DNA of 46,094 nt, taken from positions 1 to 46,094 of IMG/VR virus record IMGVR_UViG_3300047317_000079; one strand, written 5' to 3'. Positions within the stretch are counted from its first letter, which is position 1; every line of letters starts with the position of its first letter. Positions 1,238 to 30,348 of this stretch are shown here, in pieces. The notes below the pieces were generated by a model. The model made no database searches. It was not told where the DNA came from and saw only the letters and a program-made list of their open reading frames with translations. The translations under genes were made by a program, and so were the position numbers. This DNA is from a virus.

Positions 1238-1561
1238 ATGTATAAATCCCTTCTGGCCTGCGCACTCGTCGCGGGCCTTTCTTCTTGTGCCCAGCCAACG
1301 CCGCGCGCACAAGCTCCCGCCGTGACAATAGATGCAGACGGATACGCCCACGCTGCGTGTCCTCCAGGCATGAAAGAGTATTGTCTGAGGCGGGAGTATC
1401 AAGCTCAGTCCTCCGCCGCCCGTGTTTCATATCTGCGGCAATCCCTAGCCATCGATCAAGAGTCGTACAACAAGCACCCGGACGCTCAGCACGCGGCCAC
1501 CCTCGAAGCGTCCAAGGCCCGTCTAGCGGCTGCTATCCAGCAGCAGGAAGCAGGGTACTAG
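1238..1561 (+). CDS. Predicted small lipoprotein, 107 aa
   Basis: A signal peptide of about 16 residues ends in the lipobox-like LSSC, followed by a Pro/Ala-rich linker and a helical, glutamine- and alanine-rich C-terminal half that could form a coiled coil. GGAGG precedes the ATG. An imperfect hairpin (GGCTTCC...GGAGGCC) covers the ribosome binding site and may temper translation. It probably shares a transcript with the preceding lipoprotein. Family not recognised; a moron surface protein is the likeliest role, by context only. Confidence 0.6.
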   Translation: MYKSLLACALVAGLSSCAQPTPRAQAPAVTIDADGYAHAACPPGMKEYCLRREYQAQSSAARVSYLRQSLAIDQESYNKHPDAQHAATLEASKARLAAAIQQQEAGY

Positions 1562-1574
1562 CCCAACAAAGTTG

Positions 1575-1603
1575 TTGACACATACAGTGGGCCAGAGTAC
1601 AGT
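1575..1603 (+). promoter_or_regulatory. Promoter P1 with operator-like word, upstream of the PrtN-family gene
   Basis: TTGACA (1575-1580), a 17-base spacer and TACAGT (1598-1603). The spacer contains AGTGGGCCAG. The block ACAAAGTTGTTGACACA (1566-1582) matches promoter P2 (26,036-26,052) in 16 of 17 bases and recurs on the minus strand at promoter P3. The promoter begins just after the stop of the 107-aa lipoprotein and serves the gene at 1633. Confidence 0.75.
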
Positions 1604-1632
1604 CACTCCATTAACCCAACGGAGTAACGTAA

Positions 1633-1899
1633 CTGAACACTGTTTTTCTTCTCATGGCCCAATTCGGTGCGCGGGCCGTGATACCACTTGAGGAAGTACG
1701 GCGCGAATACTTCTCTCATTTAGAGTTGGATAAGATGTCGGAGAAAATATCGCGTGGGGATATTCCGCTACCCGTAGTACGAGCGGAGAACAGCCGCAAA
1801 GCCGCTAGGGGAGTCTACGTGCAAGACCTTGCGGAGTACATAGACACCCAGAGGGCGGCGGCTGTGAAAGAACGTAATCAGCTTTGCGGCATCCGGTAA
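1633..1899 (+). CDS. PrtN-family DNA-binding protein (activator or excisionase), CTG start
   Basis: The 88-aa product resembles the PrtN pyocin-activator family, small winged-helix-like DNA-binding proteins, along its whole length: N-terminal NTVFLLMAQFGARAVIP, a central LPVVR, a lysine-alanine turn and the C-terminal DLAEYID. The usual family start matches a CTG at 1633, not the ATG at 1654. CTG has GGAG (1621-1624) eight bases upstream and an in-frame TAA directly before it, so the ATG start would lose the conserved NTxFLL segment and have no ribosome binding site. The gene is convergent with the integrase and overlaps its 3' end by 22 bases. Beside int and attP it may be the excisionase rather than a late activator. 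Promoter P1 shares its operator with the early promoter. Confidence 0.75.
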   Translation: MNTVFLLMAQFGARAVIPLEEVRREYFSHLELDKMSEKISRGDIPLPVVRAENSRKAARGVYVQDLAEYIDTQRAAAVKERNQLCGIR

Positions 1900-5861: not shown

Positions 5862-8800
5862 TACCAGATACCCATACGCACGCGCAACGTGCCGTTACCG
5901 TCATAGACCATTACAGTGCTGTCGTTGATCGTTAGGTAGCCGCTTCCCGCATTCGCTCCGTTCATTGTTAGTACTCCGTTCTTATCGAGACTCCAGCGAG
6001 GTTGCCCGTTAGCGCCTACAGACGTGGACTGAATAACACCTCCAATCATTGCGTTGGTAATCCAGCCAGTACCGATAAAGGCCGAATTCATGAACACTTG
6101 CCCGCCCTGGATAACGAACGGGGACGACACAGCAGCACCGTTAGGGTCAAGCACCGCGAACCGACTGGCCGCCACCAGTACTTGAGATTCCACCGTGCCG
6201 CTTGTGTTATCCACGCCTACGCCGATACCTGCAATGTAGGTACGTCCGTTGGTCGTAATCTGCGTCTTGATTTGGTAAGAGGCTGACACTCGCCCGTTAA
6301 GGTCCGCGTAGGATTGCGCCACGGTTTGCACCGCCGCTGCGTTAGCATTGGCTTGCGCCTGTACCGTTGTGATTTGGGACGCCATAGCGCTATCTGCGTC
6401 CGTACGTGCCTTTGTCTCCGTTTGCACAGCCGCCAACAAGGTAGTAGCCGCGTTGCTGATTTGCGCGGTAACGGTGTCCACCTTCTGTGCTAGCGCTAGG
6501 TCCGCTTCTGCACGGGCCGAAGTTTCCGACCACACACCCGCGTAGACGGTGGTATCGCCTGCATAGCTCCCTGTGTCACCTGCCATTTCAGGGATAACAA
6601 CTTGCGCCGTGATTTGGTCGATACGGCTCGATAATGCCGAGTCCCCGGTAAGCCGCGCTTGCTGCTCTGTGGTGATATCCGCAGCGTTCTTAGTTACGTC
6701 CTGCTGCAAACCCGGAATAGCCTGAATAGGGGCTAGCAATCCTTGCGATAACTGAGTAGCCGTGATTTGGCCGGTAAGGTACTGGAGGATTGCCGTAGCG
6801 TCCGCCGAGGCCATACCGTGCACGCCCGCTCCCGTCTCGCTTGGATACCAAGGGCCAATGTTCCCGGTTGTGTCTACCAGTCGCGCCCAAAAGTACATAT
6901 CGTAGCCAGCCACCAAGCCCAGCAGGTTTGTTACAGTGGTCGGGTAGCTGTACCGCCCAAGTTGAGTTGAGGTATTAAAGTCGTTGGTATGGCTGTAGTA
7001 AATCTCCGTGTACGCCGTGTCTCCAGCACCAGGAGGGAACGCCCAATTAACCTGAATCGCAAATATCTTGTCTGAGCTAGCAGACAGAGAAGCAACCGTA
7101 GGAGGAGGCGTGTTCTTACCCGTTAGGTTTGTCGTGGTAGATACCGCATAGACCGACGACACACCCATAGCGTTAGTGGCTTTGACACGGGCCAAGTAAC
7201 TACCCGTGTAGATGTTATGCACGTCTACAGAGGTGCCACCGGTCGTGCCTGCATCTACCCACGTACCGTTATCCTTTTGAAACTGGACCGTATACGCTAC
7301 TGCGCTGGGCGCGGGATGCCATGCAACCGTCATGTTGGTTTTGGCTATGCCCTGGTCAATCACAACGTATTGCGACAGCGTTACACCACTAGGCGGGACC
7401 TGAGTAGTGAAGGAGTTCCCGGTAATCGGCTTAACGTCGATAGCCGCGCCGTTATCAATCGCACCGTACTTACCGGGCTCATGCTGAGAGGCGGTAATCT
7501 CAAAGGTGATACCTTCTTTCTCCGCAATAGAGACCACGCGGAACAATTGGGCGCTAACCTGCGAGCTTTCACTAACCCACACAGCACCCGATACAGGTAC
7601 AGCAGACAGGGGAGGGTTAAGGGATACAGTGTTGCCGTTGATGCCGCTAATTGAGGACTCGTATGTACCGCCCTGCGGCAACACCACACGCAACGTATCG
7701 CCTACCGCCATGGTCGGGTCAATCTTATCTAGCGTAAGGTGTGCGGTATCAGAGGCAGACTTGATACGTCCGCCGCGCCGCTGCGATGCGCGTGCAGGAT
7801 CGGCTACCGCGACAATCTGCCCAGGCTGGCACAATGTACCGTCCAGACCCACGCTAAAAGTAACCATATTGGTCTCATAGCGTGAAGTCAGAATAGACCA
7901 CTGGCCCACGCGCTGAGCCTGCGCACGCGACGTGCAACCAAACGCGGTAATCTGTGCGCGGTTAATACCGTAACGCGCGATACCGTCTCTGTCCTCAACG
8001 GACTCCGGCTCTGGCTTGTAGGCGTTATCCGGGTTGTTCCACTGCACCACGGCGCATGTGTAGCGGGTCTTTAGCGAGCTACCAACGTACTTGAACTGTC
8101 CGCCAATGACGTTAGCCGCCGTGTACAAATACACAGGGTCTCCCGGCATGTCCGCCGTAGCTACTACCGACCCCGCCGACCAGTACGCCATACCGCGAAA
8201 GATACTAGCGAGGTCTTGAAGCACCTTGTACGCGTCCGCACGGGCTTGGATATAACAGTTACAGGTAAAGCGCGGCTCTAGTCCTCCCTTCCCGTCGCTA
8301 ACCATTACATCGCAGTACTGAGCGATTTGGTACAAAGAATAACGGTCCAGCATGGAGGCATCTACGAACTGGCCTAACCCGTAGATAGGATTCAAGCAAA
8401 GGTCGTAGAAAATCCACGCCGGGTTGTCAGTCCACGCGGTTACAAAGGACCCGTCCCAGTTACCTGTATAGGTGCGGAGGTTCGGGTTATAGTTTGAGGG
8501 AACTTTGACTAACAGCCCCTTCATATCGTAGGAGCGGGTAGGCACTGCGGAGAACTGCACAGCGTCCACAGAAAGGGCCGCGATTGCGCTCAACGGATAC
8601 CGTAGCTTTGCGTCCACTACCAGTGAGTAGCTAACTACGGTTGTGGTGTCTTGGATGTAAACGCTAGTTGTGTCGTCTGTGATTCGAACCACACGTAGCG
8701 AGTACTGGGACGTAGCACCTGAAAGAGCGATACGGTGCGAACGATTGTATGAGCCGGAACACTTTCCGTTAAAGGACGTGTCTACGACGATGCTGTAAGC

Positions 8801-24928: not shown

Positions 24929-25837
24929 TCAGGGTGCGGCGTTGCCGTAGTAGCGTTCCAGGGACCTATGACCTAGGCCAGAAATGCTTTTAACTTCCTC
25001 AAAAGTATGGCGGTTCTTCATGCGGAATATTGCCTCGTGTCTGAGGTCGTTAAAATGAAGGTCCGCAATGTTGGCACGTTCTACGGCACGAATAAAAGAG
25101 CGTTGCAAAGCCTGTGCAGTTACTCCGGGAAATACACGGCCTTTAACCTGAGTTCCACGCGAGACTAATACACTTTTAGCTTTGTCAGTTAATGGGATAA
25201 TCCTGTCGCCAGAACGTCCGCGTACTATCAATTCACTCCGGTCTAAATGAATGTTAGACCAGTCCAGATTAACCAATTCAGACTGAGATAATCCGGTTTC
25301 CAAGTCAAGGATAATGGAATCTGTGAGGTATCCACCACGAGTGCGGTTAGCTTCTTCTATTAACTGTGGTTCCTCGTAAGATGCTAGGCGACGAATCCGC
25401 ATTACTTGCGGTTTAGCATATGCAGCACGTACGGGATTATCAGGTAGGTTAATACCGAAGTCGGAGCGGGCTGTCTCCAGTACTTCCTCCAGCACGTCCA
25501 TTAGCTTTGTCCGCTCTGGTTGCCAGGCGGTAATGTCCTCTGCCGATAGCTCCGACACCATGAGGTCCGCAAAGGGGGCTAGCTTGAGGGCTACAAGCTC
25601 AGACTCGTTATCGTCGGTGGGTCCTACAGTGTCCCAATATATCTGGACCACTTCACGGATTGAGGTTAGGTCCGCTGCTTCACGCTCCAGCGGCTTACCG
25701 GACTCTATGTGAGCTTCAAGGTTAGCGGCCCATTGTTCGGCTTCTTCGCGCGTGTCGAATGATTTTGATTGTGGGGCTGCTCCGGCCTTACGTACCTTTG
25801 CTCTCCACTTGTCGCCGCGCTGGCTAATCGATGCCAT
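24929..25837 (-). CDS. Tyrosine-recombinase homologue with degraded catalytic site, 302 aa
   Basis: The fold is intact: an N-terminal arm-binding-like region (SQRGDKWRAKVRK), a core-binding domain and a catalytic-like domain. But the first catalytic arginine is S184 (TGLSQSE instead of TGLRxSE), the histidine of HxxR is N263 (NDLRH), and the hairpin lysine is not evident (R206/R208). R266, H290 and a tyrosine at Y296/Y297 remain. Strand exchange is doubtful. It lies next to divergent promoters and could act as a DNA-binding regulator; equally it may be a decaying relic. Its leader lacks a good ribosome binding site. It is unlike the complete integrase at 1878-2987. Confidence 0.8.
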   Translation of the reverse strand: MASISQRGDKWRAKVRKAGAAPQSKSFDTREEAEQWAANLEAHIESGKPLEREAADLTSIREVVQIYWDTVGPTDDNESELVALKLAPFADLMVSELSAEDITAWQPERTKLMDVLEEVLETARSDFGINLPDNPVRAAYAKPQVMRIRRLASYEEPQLIEEANRTRGGYLTDSIILDLETGLSQSELVNLDWSNIHLDRSELIVRGRSGDRIIPLTDKAKSVLVSRGTQVKGRVFPGVTAQALQRSFIRAVERANIADLHFNDLRHEAIFRMKNRHTFEEVKSISGLGHRSLERYYGNAAP

Positions 25838-26021: not shown

Positions 26022-26120
26022 AAGTGGGCCAGCGCACAAAGTTCTTGACACAGAAAGTGGGCCAGCGTACAGTTCAACCCATGGCAGCACAGAACGAAAC
26101 AGACGAAAGCGTAGCCCACT
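26022..26120. promoter_or_regulatory. Cluster of AGTGGGCYA operator-like words
   Basis: AAGTGGGCCAGCG occurs at 26,022-26,034 and again at 26,055-26,067, the second lying between the -35 and -10 of promoter P2. An inverted relative, TAGCCCACT, is at 26,112-26,120. The same word lies within promoter P1 (1586-1595). Copies in the spacers of two promoters are typical of repressor sites. No repressor gene of a known family is visible. Confidence 0.55.
26045..26073 (+). promoter_or_regulatory. Promoter P2, main rightward early promoter
   Basis: TTGACA (26,045-26,050), a 17-base spacer and TACAGT (26,068-26,073), almost the same as promoter P1. It is the only strong host-type promoter seen ahead of the 19-kb plus-strand operon. 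Transcription would start about 26,080, close to an ATG at 26,081, leaving about 390 bases before the first gene at 26,471. Confidence 0.75.
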
Positions 26121-26134
26121 GGGCAAGCAAGTAG
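26081..26134 (+). CDS. Possible leaderless 17-aa peptide at the early transcript start
   Basis: ATG at 26,081 is 8 bases after the -10 box of P2, so it would be at or next to the first base of the transcript. The frame runs 17 codons (MAAQNETDESVAHWASK) to a TAG. The third operator-like word overlaps it. It may be chance; leaderless translation would need experimental support. Confidence 0.25.
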   Translation: MAAQNETDESVAHWASK

Positions 26135-26422
26135 AAAAAGACGTTCTAGGTAGCCTAGGTAGTTGAGTTGGAAGCGAGATAGTTACGGCCTACTAGCCTG
26201 GCGTGTAAGTCCTTGGGAACAAGGCAAGAACAGGATAAAGAGTCGGAGTCGCGGAGAGCAGTCCCAAGGGGAGTATGCCGAGGGAAACCAAAGCGAGGCT
26301 GGGAAGCTAATTAGGACTTCTGATAGCCGTACTTAAACATGCAAACAACGTGCATGGAAGGGTGCGCCTGGACGAACGACGATGGCCCAGCACGAACTAC
26401 GGTTCGTCAAGGAGGATTCTTA

Positions 26423-26449
26423 GTGAGTCTCCTTGTTCAACCGCTGTAG
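26423..26449 (+). CDS. Possible 8-aa leader peptide
   Basis: A perfect AAGGAGG (26,409-26,415) lies seven bases before GTG at 26,423, which opens an eight-codon frame (MSLLVQPL) ending in TAG, 22 bases before the first gene. The ribosome binding site is inside the CAAGGAG/CTCCTTG hairpin. It could be a translated leader peptide or simply an unusually placed ribosome binding site. Confidence 0.3.
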   Translation: MSLLVQPL

Positions 26450-26470
26450 AACTAGAGAGACTGAGGAACA

Positions 26471-27103: not shown

Positions 27104-27307
27104 ATGAACCAACGACAAGTATTGATAGAGGCGCACCGCGCCCACGCAAAGGTTACCTACCATGAAGCAACGAGCACAATTCAAATTGACGGGCATCGCT
27201 GGGATCGCTGGCAAGCGCTACGAAGCGGAAAAGAACCGCCGCCAATTGTTACGTGGAATGGGCGTCAAACTCGCTGTTACTCCGACTCCGGAGCAGCGCT
27301 CCAATAA
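27104..27307 (+). CDS. Doubtful ORF overlapping the kinase start, 67 aa
   Basis: An ATG at 27,104 opens a 67-codon frame that overlaps the first 146 bases of the kinase gene in another frame. Its first half is protein-like (MNQRQVLIEAHRAHAKVTY), but the ribosome binding site is weak (GGAC). If it is real, the kinase probably starts farther downstream, for example at 27,258. Recorded as a low-confidence alternative. Confidence 0.25.
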   Translation: MNQRQVLIEAHRAHAKVTYHEATSTIQIDGHRWDRWQALRSGKEPPPIVTWNGRQTRCYSDSGAALQ

Positions 27308-28430
27308 GTTGGGCGGGTTCGACTTTGCCGCGTTAGAAAAGCGGGTTTTCGCTGGGTTCCAGAACCTCCCAAAGCTGGAGATTGGGCGTAGTTTTAAGTT
27401 GTTCGCAAACGAACTGCGTATCGACGGCGCGCGAGTGGGCCGCGTGGACAATCTCCGTATGGACTTGGAGCGGCCCGCGAAAGTTGACCCAGCAGCCGAA
27501 TACGATTCCTACCGTGCACAGTGGCGGCTACATAATCCATCCGGCGTACCGCTCATGGTGTGGGACAGGTACGGATGCGAAATGTATCCGCACGCTTGCC
27601 ACATCTGGGAAAGCCAGCCGTGGGTGTCCGAATGGAAACCAAGCTGTAGAGCCGCGCGTGGCCTCCACTATAACCGGCTTGCCGGAGACGCACGGGTACA
27701 CCGCAATGCAATCGCACGTTCCCGCGCTGTTCGTGTGGGCGAGGGCTTTGCACGGGTAATCCAGCAGTTTGGCTATGCCCGTGCGGAGCTTTACAACGCA
27801 CACCAGGACCACAAGGAGATTTTCGGAAAGTCAGACGTAGACGATAGGCTATTCGAGACGTGGAGATGCACGACCTCAAGCCGTGGCACCGATCCTATGT
27901 TCCTCACCGCAGAGGACGCCTACGACAAAGAGCTAGCCGCGCATCCGTATTACCTTGGGCATGCGTTCACCGAGGCCACCGGGTGGTATCTGCTTGGTGC
28001 GGGTGCGTACTCGTATGCATTCGCTAACGACAACTACCCCGGAATCGTCGTGAAGCTGGGAAAGAGTCGTACGGACGCATGCTTTAAGTACCTCGCATGG
28101 TCCCAACGCAACCAACATTTGCACGGCGTTCCGTCGGTGTACTTCCTGTCTGATTACCAGATGGATTACACGGGTAGCGGGTTCTACGTCGCTGTGCTTG
28201 ACGCTCTTACGGAGAATACAGGCAAAGCGCGGCGCTTGGACCTGCCCCAGCGCAGCCGCCCACGGGAATGGGAGCAGTCGATTCCGGACGATGCTACCGC
28301 AGAAATGAAGGCTCTGTACGAGACGTTAGAGCTAGTGTGGCAATCGACAGACGGTCACCCAGACCTCCACGCAGGAAATATCCTTTTCACCAAAGAGGGA
28401 TTCCCGGTAATCGCGGACCCTTGCTGTTAA
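27162..28430 (+). CDS. Protein kinase-like protein related to T7 gp0.7
   Basis: The C-terminal half has a kinase fold signature in T7 gp0.7 order: a Gly-rich loop GAGAYSYAF (279-287), VVKL with K298, a VPSVY/YVAVLDAL segment, the catalytic loop HPDLHAGN with D401, and IADP with D419 as the metal-binding aspartate. In T7, gp0.7 phosphorylates host proteins, including RNA polymerase, and helps shut off host transcription. Here the protein stops two residues after ADP, so the gp0.7 C-terminal shutoff extension is absent, while an unrecognised 250-residue N-terminal region is present. Start uncertain: ATG at 27,162 has AAGG upstream. Second or third gene of the early operon. Confidence 0.75.
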   Translation: MKQRAQFKLTGIAGIAGKRYEAEKNRRQLLRGMGVKLAVTPTPEQRSNKLGGFDFAALEKRVFAGFQNLPKLEIGRSFKLFANELRIDGARVGRVDNLRMDLERPAKVDPAAEYDSYRAQWRLHNPSGVPLMVWDRYGCEMYPHACHIWESQPWVSEWKPSCRAARGLHYNRLAGDARVHRNAIARSRAVRVGEGFARVIQQFGYARAELYNAHQDHKEIFGKSDVDDRLFETWRCTTSSRGTDPMFLTAEDAYDKELAAHPYYLGHAFTEATGWYLLGAGAYSYAFANDNYPGIVVKLGKSRTDACFKYLAWSQRNQHLHGVPSVYFLSDYQMDYTGSGFYVAVLDALTENTGKARRLDLPQRSRPREWEQSIPDDATAEMKALYETLELVWQSTDGHPDLHAGNILFTKEGFPVIADPCC

Positions 28431-29812: not shown

Positions 29813-29819
29813 CACGAGC

Positions 29820-30038
29820 CGCCGAACGGCGGTTAGTGTTGGTGTAGCTCGGATTGCGAATGAGGGTTGGCGACGGCTGGCCCTGTGTAGCGTGTTCGAT
29901 ACCAGTAAGCAGGACTGAGTAGCCTAGCGTAGCGCTGCGCGATGGCGAAAGAAACCGCCTCTGGATGGTAGAGGGCATAGAGAGCACCGTCCGTGGAGGG
30001 CGGAGGTCGCGCACTGCCACCAACACTAACCGCCGTTC
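29820..30038 (+). ncRNA. Candidate structured RNA enclosed by a perfect 21-bp inverted repeat
   Basis: Bases 29,824-29,844 and 30,018-30,038 are perfect 21-bp inverted copies enclosing 173 bases with no credible gene. Inside lie GGGTTGGC-GACG-GCTGGCCC (8 bp with G-U pairs, 29,864-29,883) and CCTCT/AGAGG around 29,957-29,975. The left arm can alternatively close a local CCGCC-GAAC-GGCGG hairpin (29,820-29,833), mutually exclusive with the long stem. It follows the 121-aa gene by eight bases. It could be an RNase III processing site, a regulatory RNA or a switch. No known RNA family is recognised. Confidence 0.6.
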
Positions 30039-30072: not shown

Positions 30073-30348
30073 ATGCACAAAATTACTGCTGCAATTCTCG
30101 CCGCGTTCGCGTCGCTTCGTGGTGTTGCTCTCAAGGTGCGCGCTAGTCTTATCGACGCCCATGTAGCTAACCTCTCGAAGCTGGAGGACAAGGCTAAGGC
30201 GGAGGTCTCGCTGGCCCAGGAAGCCAAGACGCGTGCACTGGACCTGTACACGTTCGCATGCAAGGAGATTGTAGAAGCGGACGCTAAGGTACGAGAGGTT
30301 CAATTGTTCGTGAAGGAGGAAGCAGCAAAGCACGGCGTAACGCTTTGA
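30073..30348 (+). CDS. Helical hypothetical protein, 91 aa
   Basis: ATG at 30,073 has AAGGA five bases upstream; a longer frame from 29,965 lies inside the structured RNA and is rejected. The product starts MHKITAAILAAFASLRGVAL, perhaps an amphipathic or membrane-associated helix, followed by a long charged helix (residues 30-85) that could form a coiled coil. Function unknown. Confidence 0.6.
   Translation: MHKITAAILAAFASLRGVALKVRASLIDAHVANLSKLEDKAKAEVSLAQEAKTRALDLYTFACKEIVEADAKVREVQLFVKEEAAKHGVTL

Follow-up and report, generated by a model that had tools for sequence, protein, structure and literature searches.

A previously undescribed phage RNA family with a tRNA-like core and self-complementary loops

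T7-like and temperate phages carry, at different genomic sites, a previously undescribed family of structured RNAs of about 200-220 nt that has no entry in Rfam. That these sequences constitute an RNA family with a common fold is nearly certain. The RNA resembles the core of tRNA, although it is not a tRNA. At the level of sequence comparison, the family, its fold, its mobility between sites and its palindromic loops are established; we infer that the RNA may in addition oligomerise, undergo processing and act in trans, possibly as a decoy. The best explanation, to which we assign a probability of roughly 0.55, is that of a self-pairing, tRNA-like accessory RNA which is freed at its closing duplex or by a terminator, acts in trans and most probably binds or decoys a host or defence factor. 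No description of the family was found in the open-access literature, a scope that leaves aside subscription papers and most preprints.

The element in its source phage

The stretch of phage DNA analysed here (46,094 nt, referred to as the window) contains an exact inverted repeat, 21 bp out of 21, whose arms enclose 173 nt (Table 1). The preliminary description had singled it out, and it is indeed the longest exact inverted repeat with arms within 400 nt of each other in the whole window, ahead of repeats of 17 and 13 bp. The plus strand of the element folds at -106.6 kcal/mol, compared with -86.7 +/- 4.5 kcal/mol for dinucleotide shuffles (z = -4.39, 0/200), so that the folding check called for at the outset speaks clearly for a structured RNA. 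The minus strand is also strongly folded (z = -4.0), as one would expect for an inverted repeat; the plus strand was chosen as the RNA strand because synteny and orientation are conserved. The 8-bp stem first noted at 29,864-29,883 is real and corresponds to P2, which in fact has 9 bp (29863-29871/29876-29884), and the local hairpin noticed over the left arm exists as P0.

The region is interrupted by stops in most frames. An open reading frame of 127 aa that enters from 29965 is merely a 5' extension of a 91-aa protein starting at 30073; this start is kept in the closest relative (L006), where the extension has no counterpart. Retention of a protein frame by related phages, which had been named as a finding that would tell against an RNA, is thus not seen: the frame is not kept as protein.

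Table 1. Parts of the RNA in the source phage, in window coordinates
Feature	Position	Strand	Evidence or remark
Whole RNA element, about 215 nt	29824..30038	+	Covariance models R1/R2; homologues in other phages
P1 5' arm, 21-bp closing duplex, acceptor-like	29824..29844	+	18/20 aligned pairs changed on both sides
P1 3' arm	30018..30038	+	Same covariation as P1 5' arm
P0, competing local hairpin CCGCC-GAAC-GGCGG, overlaps P1 5' arm	29819..29832	+	Shuffle test p 0.10
UA, tRNA positions 8-9; D-stem 5' strand GCTC (29847-29850); positions 14-15	29845..29852	+	
P2 hairpin, 9 bp, GACG loop	29863..29884	+	4/9 pairs covary, window vs L009
Conserved GUGUAGC	29885..29891	+	Can pair with GCGCAC (30009-30014), alternative/tertiary, group A
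P4 arm	29892..29978	+	Helices 29892-29897/29973-29978 and 29900-29904/29966-29970
P4 exchangeable apical module	29905..29965	+	
Self-complementary hexamer AGCGCT	29931..29936	+	In apical loop UAGCGCUG (29930-29937) of alignment helix P8
A21; D-stem 3' strand GAGC (29982-29985); R26	29981..29986	+	D-stem covaries
P5 hairpin, anticodon-arm position, CCGUCC-GUGGA-GGGCGG	29987..30003	+	
Variable loop AGGUC	30004..30008	+	C48 (30008) pairs with position 15 (29852)
P6, minimal T-arm analogue GCG-CAC-UGC, abutting P1	30009..30017	+	

Members of the family

A BLASTN search of phages with the window's own element returned chance-level matches only. The family surfaced through a sister genome and then through pattern scans and covariance models. 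A model built from only the window copy and that of a more distant relative, L009 (R1), found full-length matches in L028 (123 bits), L029 (111), L038 (110), L035 (78) and L036 (74). These five, together with the window and L009, form group A. R1 and pattern scans also yielded, as group B, L039 (identical to L046 and L054), L041, L042, L049, L051 and L055. BLASTN added 13 further GenBank records of P. aeruginosa phages, among them Tr60_Ab31, MPK9, PAE2 and BUCT566; the records of these four show either no annotation at the element or calls of 'hypothetical protein' over it. In BUCT566 (L063) the RNA is overlapped, on the other strand, by an annotated 'hypothetical protein' (1362-1742, minus strand), which is probably an annotation error.

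The second covariance model, R2, had not been trained on the BUCT566 copy and gave it 139 bits (E = 6e-37). Over 36 sources, members among those listed scored 139-173 bits and non-member loci at most 15.7 bits, the best of the latter matching the P5 piece only. One of the pattern scans demanded the P5 loop, so its matches were selected for that loop; GUGGA is consequently over-represented and its conservation is partly one of ascertainment (the loop is GCAGAU in BUCT566). P1, the D-stem and the apical loops lay outside the scan pattern, and their covariation is therefore not a product of the scan.

The original reader's remark that no known RNA family could be recognised holds against Rfam 15: at the gathering threshold there were no matches for the window, L028, L029, L035, L036, L038, L039, L041, L042, L051, L055 or L060, and at E <= 10 the window and L009 gave chance-level matches only. 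R2 had no match in T7, lambda, phiKMV, D3, PAJU2, PMG1, phi297, F10 or F116, nor in the Caulobacter phages Lullwater and Percy, the Brevundimonas phage Babayka, the Sphingomonas phage Scott or the P. putida phage Ihaste. No copy was found in plasmids and E. coli genomes at the sensitivity of BLAST, and a strict pattern had no match in GTDB genomes. The first pattern matches, L001 and L002, were rejected as coding DNA. In Tr60_Ab31-type phages the RNA is immediately preceded by a long hairpin (GGGGATGACTCTAG...CTAGAGCCATCCCC; about 3795-3860 in L060).

Covariation and the tRNA-like core

An alignment of 14 distinct sequences with 33 base pairs has 96.3% of its pair cells paired, and 24 pairs have changed on both sides. 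Two-sided compensatory cells number 114, compared with 35.7 +/- 4.2 in shuffles, and when the alignment is slid by 1-3 columns pairing falls to 37-46%. RNAalifold, given only the group B sequences and no input structure, recovered P1, the D-stem, P2, P4, P5 and P6, with 30 of 68 pairs compensatory. Between the window and L009, which share blocks of 23 identical bases, 16 pairs of the closing stems differ on both sides (0/500 shuffles were as good), and 6 of the 11 pairs in the P4 helices covary. The earlier concern that the two arms might vary without compensation is answered by the opposite finding, compensating changes in both arms (18/20 aligned pairs of P1), and the proposal of a structured RNA is strongly supported. 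A nested helix, GUGU/GCRCAC, was demoted to a possible tertiary contact when the D-stem proved to covary instead; the contact between GUGUAGC and GCGCAC is weak, showing a single one-sided change.

The four-way junction has linkers of 2, 1, 5 and 0 nt, which is the spacing of tRNA. From its 5' end the core runs through P1, U8 and R9, a 4-bp D-stem, positions 14-15, an insert, A21 and the 3' strand of the D-stem; it continues through purine 26, P5 (5-6 bp), a 5-nt variable loop AGGUC and P6, which joins P1 with 0 nt between them. The D-stem covaries between GCUC-GAGC, GAGC-GCUC and GCGC-GCGC. Positions 14-15 are AG in 12 of 14 sequences and GG in the window, the only copy with G at position 14. 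The pair between positions 15 and 48 is G-C in 13 of 14 sequences and U-A in L060, a change of the kind seen at the Levitt pair of tRNA.

Set against tRNA (RF00005), the element thus shares the 2/1/5/0 junction, U8, A14, R15-Y48, A21, R26, the 4-bp D-stem and AGGUC; both the junction spacing and the core residues at 8, 14, 15, 21, 26 and 48 agree. It lacks, however, a 7-bp acceptor with CCA, a T-loop and a U33 anticodon loop, and ARAGORN found no tRNA gene in it. The place of the acceptor stem is taken by a duplex of 20-29 bp, and that of the D-loop by an insert of about 106-132 nt bearing two arms, P2 and P4. As T-loop, G18G19 and U33 are missing, many tRNA-binding proteins should not recognise the element.

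Two other assignments were considered and dropped. A retron, with P1 as a1/a2 and a UAGC motif, found no reverse transcriptase among the proteins scanned near the element, and likeness to a CRISPR repeat amounted to only a 7-mer resemblance.

Genomic context

The two ends of the window record have 127 identical bases in common, as in a circular assembly. The minus strand carries terminase, portal and head genes, with an integrase-like gene at 24929-25837, and the plus strand carries genes for a kinase, primase, helicase, DNA polymerase and single-subunit RNA polymerase. This gene content marks a T7-like phage, one that is probably temperate. The RNA lies between genes for 121-aa and 91-aa proteins.

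The closest relative (L006/L007) has the same gene order, and its helicase is 98% identical. In L006 both flanking genes are kept, the element is absent, and unrelated sequence with a short open frame lies between them. The element is therefore a cassette and not a fixed part of the locus. This sequence is at 4384-4560 of L006, at the site of the RNA, and one site thus appears to hold either an RNA gene or a possible small protein gene, exchanged as cassettes.

In every case the element lies between genes, and the gene downstream differs in nearly every phage. The L009 homologue (7411-7625) lies between primase and helicase; by our reading of the translated sequences, the copy in L028 is upstream of a primase-like gene and that in L029 upstream of a T7-type DNA-polymerase-like gene. 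The copies in L036 and L038 follow an endolysin gene, and those of group B lie near CI-like repressor genes. In Tr60_Ab31 the element is in an early operon, where the gene for a CI-type regulator precedes it and those for Bet and the exonuclease follow.

Occupation of different sites in related phages, and absence from the syntenic site in L006, would also be expected of a mobile element at the DNA level, a MITE-like non-autonomous transposon with the P1 arms as its terminal inverted repeats. This is very improbable. The arms change fully between copies while the interior is conserved, the reverse of what transposon ends do; their pairing covaries, and neither conserved terminal repeats nor a definable target-site duplication was found.

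Two further features of the window were observed. Between the early genes and the integrase-like gene, two sigma70-like promoters diverge, with TTGACA at 26045 (plus strand) and 25902 (minus strand); their -35 boxes are covered by a 17-bp inverted pair (TGTGTCAAGAACTTTGT; 25895-25911/26036-26052). The pair is kept in L006/L007 and has a similar counterpart at about 1566-1600 (89% over 35 nt); it looks like a repressor operator pair and not an RNA. Downstream of the early promoter, roughly 400 nt (26071-26470, core about 26174-26304) contain no listed open reading frame of at least 60 aa; they are 96.5% identical in L006/L007 and 75-83% identical over 83-136 nt in L010, L012, L013 and L020. This region has no Rfam match, has a fold z of -2.0 and is possibly a second conserved leader RNA.

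The closing duplex and neighbouring hairpins

P1 is a near-perfect duplex of 20-29 bp in most members, with 18-29 uninterrupted pairs in most and fewer in L009, L035, L039, L049, L051 and L060. A duplex of at least about 20 bp, as befits an RNase III site, is thus present in the window (21 bp), and cleavage of the closing duplex by RNase III could plausibly free the RNA. The same duplex could be the whole of the function: P1 would be an RNase III site parting the upstream from the downstream message, as happens in T7 early mRNA, and the interior a spacer. The duplex length is as this would require, the element stands between genes every time, and the phage encodes a 422-aa protein (27162-28430) whose C-terminal part matches T7-type kinase families; its best PHROG match is annotated as regulating (up-regulating) RNase III, and its gene is in the early region, as is the RNA. 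A purely cis-acting processing site is nevertheless distinctly unlikely, since the interior is conserved and covarying and a bare RNase III site needs neither a tRNA-like core nor palindromic loops. Moreover, T7 itself has no match, and an intrinsic-terminator-like hairpin directly follows the RNA in L036 (3038-3061) and L060 (4082-4098).

P0 competes with the 5' arm of P1. Against shuffled upstream sequence it is significant in L028 (0/400, p <0.0025) and modestly so (p 0.02-0.06) in L035, L036, L042, L049 and L051, and it is absent from L039 and L060. It could time folding or processing. The proposal that the element is a switch between genes is weakly supported: the competing 5' hairpin is there but is significant in only some members, and no constant gene lies downstream. 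A cis-acting regulator of downstream genes, whether riboswitch, attenuator or put-like antiterminator, would account for P0, for the terminator-like hairpins and for the early-operon position in Tr60_Ab31. It is unlikely all the same, given that the downstream gene is nearly always a different one, that L006 keeps the flanking genes without the element, that a small-molecule switch would need a less stable P1 and that P0 is missing from two members; neither a constant downstream gene nor an expression platform was found. Among the three roles first proposed (RNase III processing site, stand-alone RNA and switch), a stand-alone RNA fits best, with neighbours that change between phages and a terminator-like hairpin directly 3' in two of them.

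Self-complementary loops

The apical modules of P4 are exchangeable, and the palindromes in their terminal loops differ between branches. The loop contains UAGCUA in L029, L035 and L036, CUGCAG in L039, GUCGAC in L042 and GUGCAC in L041, L049, L051, L055, L060 and L063; L028 and L038 have a 4-nt palindrome only, GGCC. AGCGCU in the window and UCGCGA in L009 are conditional on P8, a covarying 3-bp helix which in both costs 4-5 kcal/mol relative to the most stable monomer fold of the isolated module, and these two are for that reason the weaker cases. With loop boundaries that were partly set by hand, 7 of 9 distinct P4 loop sequences have a 6-nt palindrome, and random loops of the same lengths gave at least five in 3 of 100,000 trials and at least six in none of 200,000. 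The P2 loop of group B, (U/A)UCGCGA, provides a second palindrome, which is lost in L060; in group A the P2 loop is GACG in five of seven members.

A palindromic hexamer in a loop is unable to pair with itself within one molecule, so its retained self-complementarity points to pairing between copies. Kissing-loop homo-oligomers are accordingly a likely prediction from the loop sequences. Covarying self-complementary loops of this type are a feature of the OLE, ROOL and GOLLD RNAs, and the family has them, conditionally on P8 in the window and L009. The alternative of a tRNA-like decoy or scaffold that stays monomeric, its palindromes incidental or dyads at the DNA level, is rather unlikely. 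In its favour, the core is the best conserved part, L028 and L038 have the weaker palindromes, and those of two further members are conditional; yet the hexamers change and stay self-complementary (UAGCUA, CUGCAG, GUCGAC and GUGCAC, at odds of about 1e-5), and group B has its second palindromic loop in P2.

Proposed role

The neighbouring genes differ between phages, L006 has no element and terminator-like hairpins lie downstream, all of which argues for an accessory, stand-alone RNA, and the changing neighbours further argue for action in trans. The self-pairing accessory RNA that we favour would be encoded in an early, replication or recombination region and co-transcribed with its neighbours. 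Excision at P1, most obviously by RNase III, or a terminator of its own would then release it. Copies would most likely pair through kissing loops at the tip of P4, and in one subgroup also at P2, to give a homodimer or higher oligomer, and such self-pairing would display the tRNA-like core in multivalent form. In trans, the RNA would most likely bind or decoy a host or defence factor that reads the tRNA core.

Accessory early phage genes are often counter-defence genes, and on this analogy our leading guess is that the RNA decoys a host or defence factor that binds tRNA. A more elaborate version is tentative: closed oligomers, formed through two loops (P4 together with P2, whose loop is UCGCGA in group B and GACG in group A), might constitute a multivalent tRNA mimic, an exchangeable anti-defence gene that neutralises a tRNA-sensing defence or hijacks a tRNA-binding enzyme.

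Comparison with known RNAs and significance

OLE, ROOL and GOLLD form homo-oligomers of RNA only, partly through symmetric kissing loops with covarying palindromes, and those of OLE and GOLLD are visible by cryo-EM (PMC12286853). The OLE palindromes are GGCC, GAUC and AGCU, and the argument from swapping palindromes has been used for L9.3 of OLE and L21a of GOLLD; ROOL and GOLLD are borne by phages and prophages and have no known function (PMC12286853). Like these RNAs, the element is non-coding and highly structured, with covarying palindromic loops. It differs in having about 215 nt where they have several hundred, in its secondary structure and in the absence of an Rfam match to these families, and its oligomer is a prediction only.

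The retroviral dimer initiation site drives homodimerisation through a palindromic hexamer in a hairpin loop, and GACG loops contribute to retroviral RNA dimer linkage (PMC516450, PMC4066764). As part of a genomic RNA leader with no tRNA-like core, that site is analogous to the element in mechanism only. The loop of the HIV site also carries GUGCAC. YrlA, a bacterial Y RNA with the Ro60 protein as partner, mimics the T-loop and elbow of tRNA and is reportedly borne by some phages. It is a lead on account of its long terminal stem and tRNA-like module; the element, however, has no T-loop, and no TROVE protein was found among the window proteins scanned. The pRNA of phi29 is a phage non-coding RNA that oligomerises by loop-loop pairing and is essential for packaging in that phage, whereas the element is absent from the closest relative, sits with early genes and has no Rfam match. 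The early RNase III R sites of T7 are likewise found in the early region of a T7-like phage and have a duplex of the size RNase III requires, but they are short single hairpins in place of a folded element, and R2 has no match in T7.

These findings would add a family to the RNAs absent from Rfam, one that is present in isolated P. aeruginosa phages, where several records leave it unannotated or overlay it with a 'hypothetical protein'. A core without elbow or anticodon, combined with palindromic loops, leads to precise predictions: an oligomer, its disruption and its rescue. With a length of about 215 nt, the RNA could offer a convenient system in which to ask why self-assembling RNAs such as ROOL and GOLLD are carried by phages.
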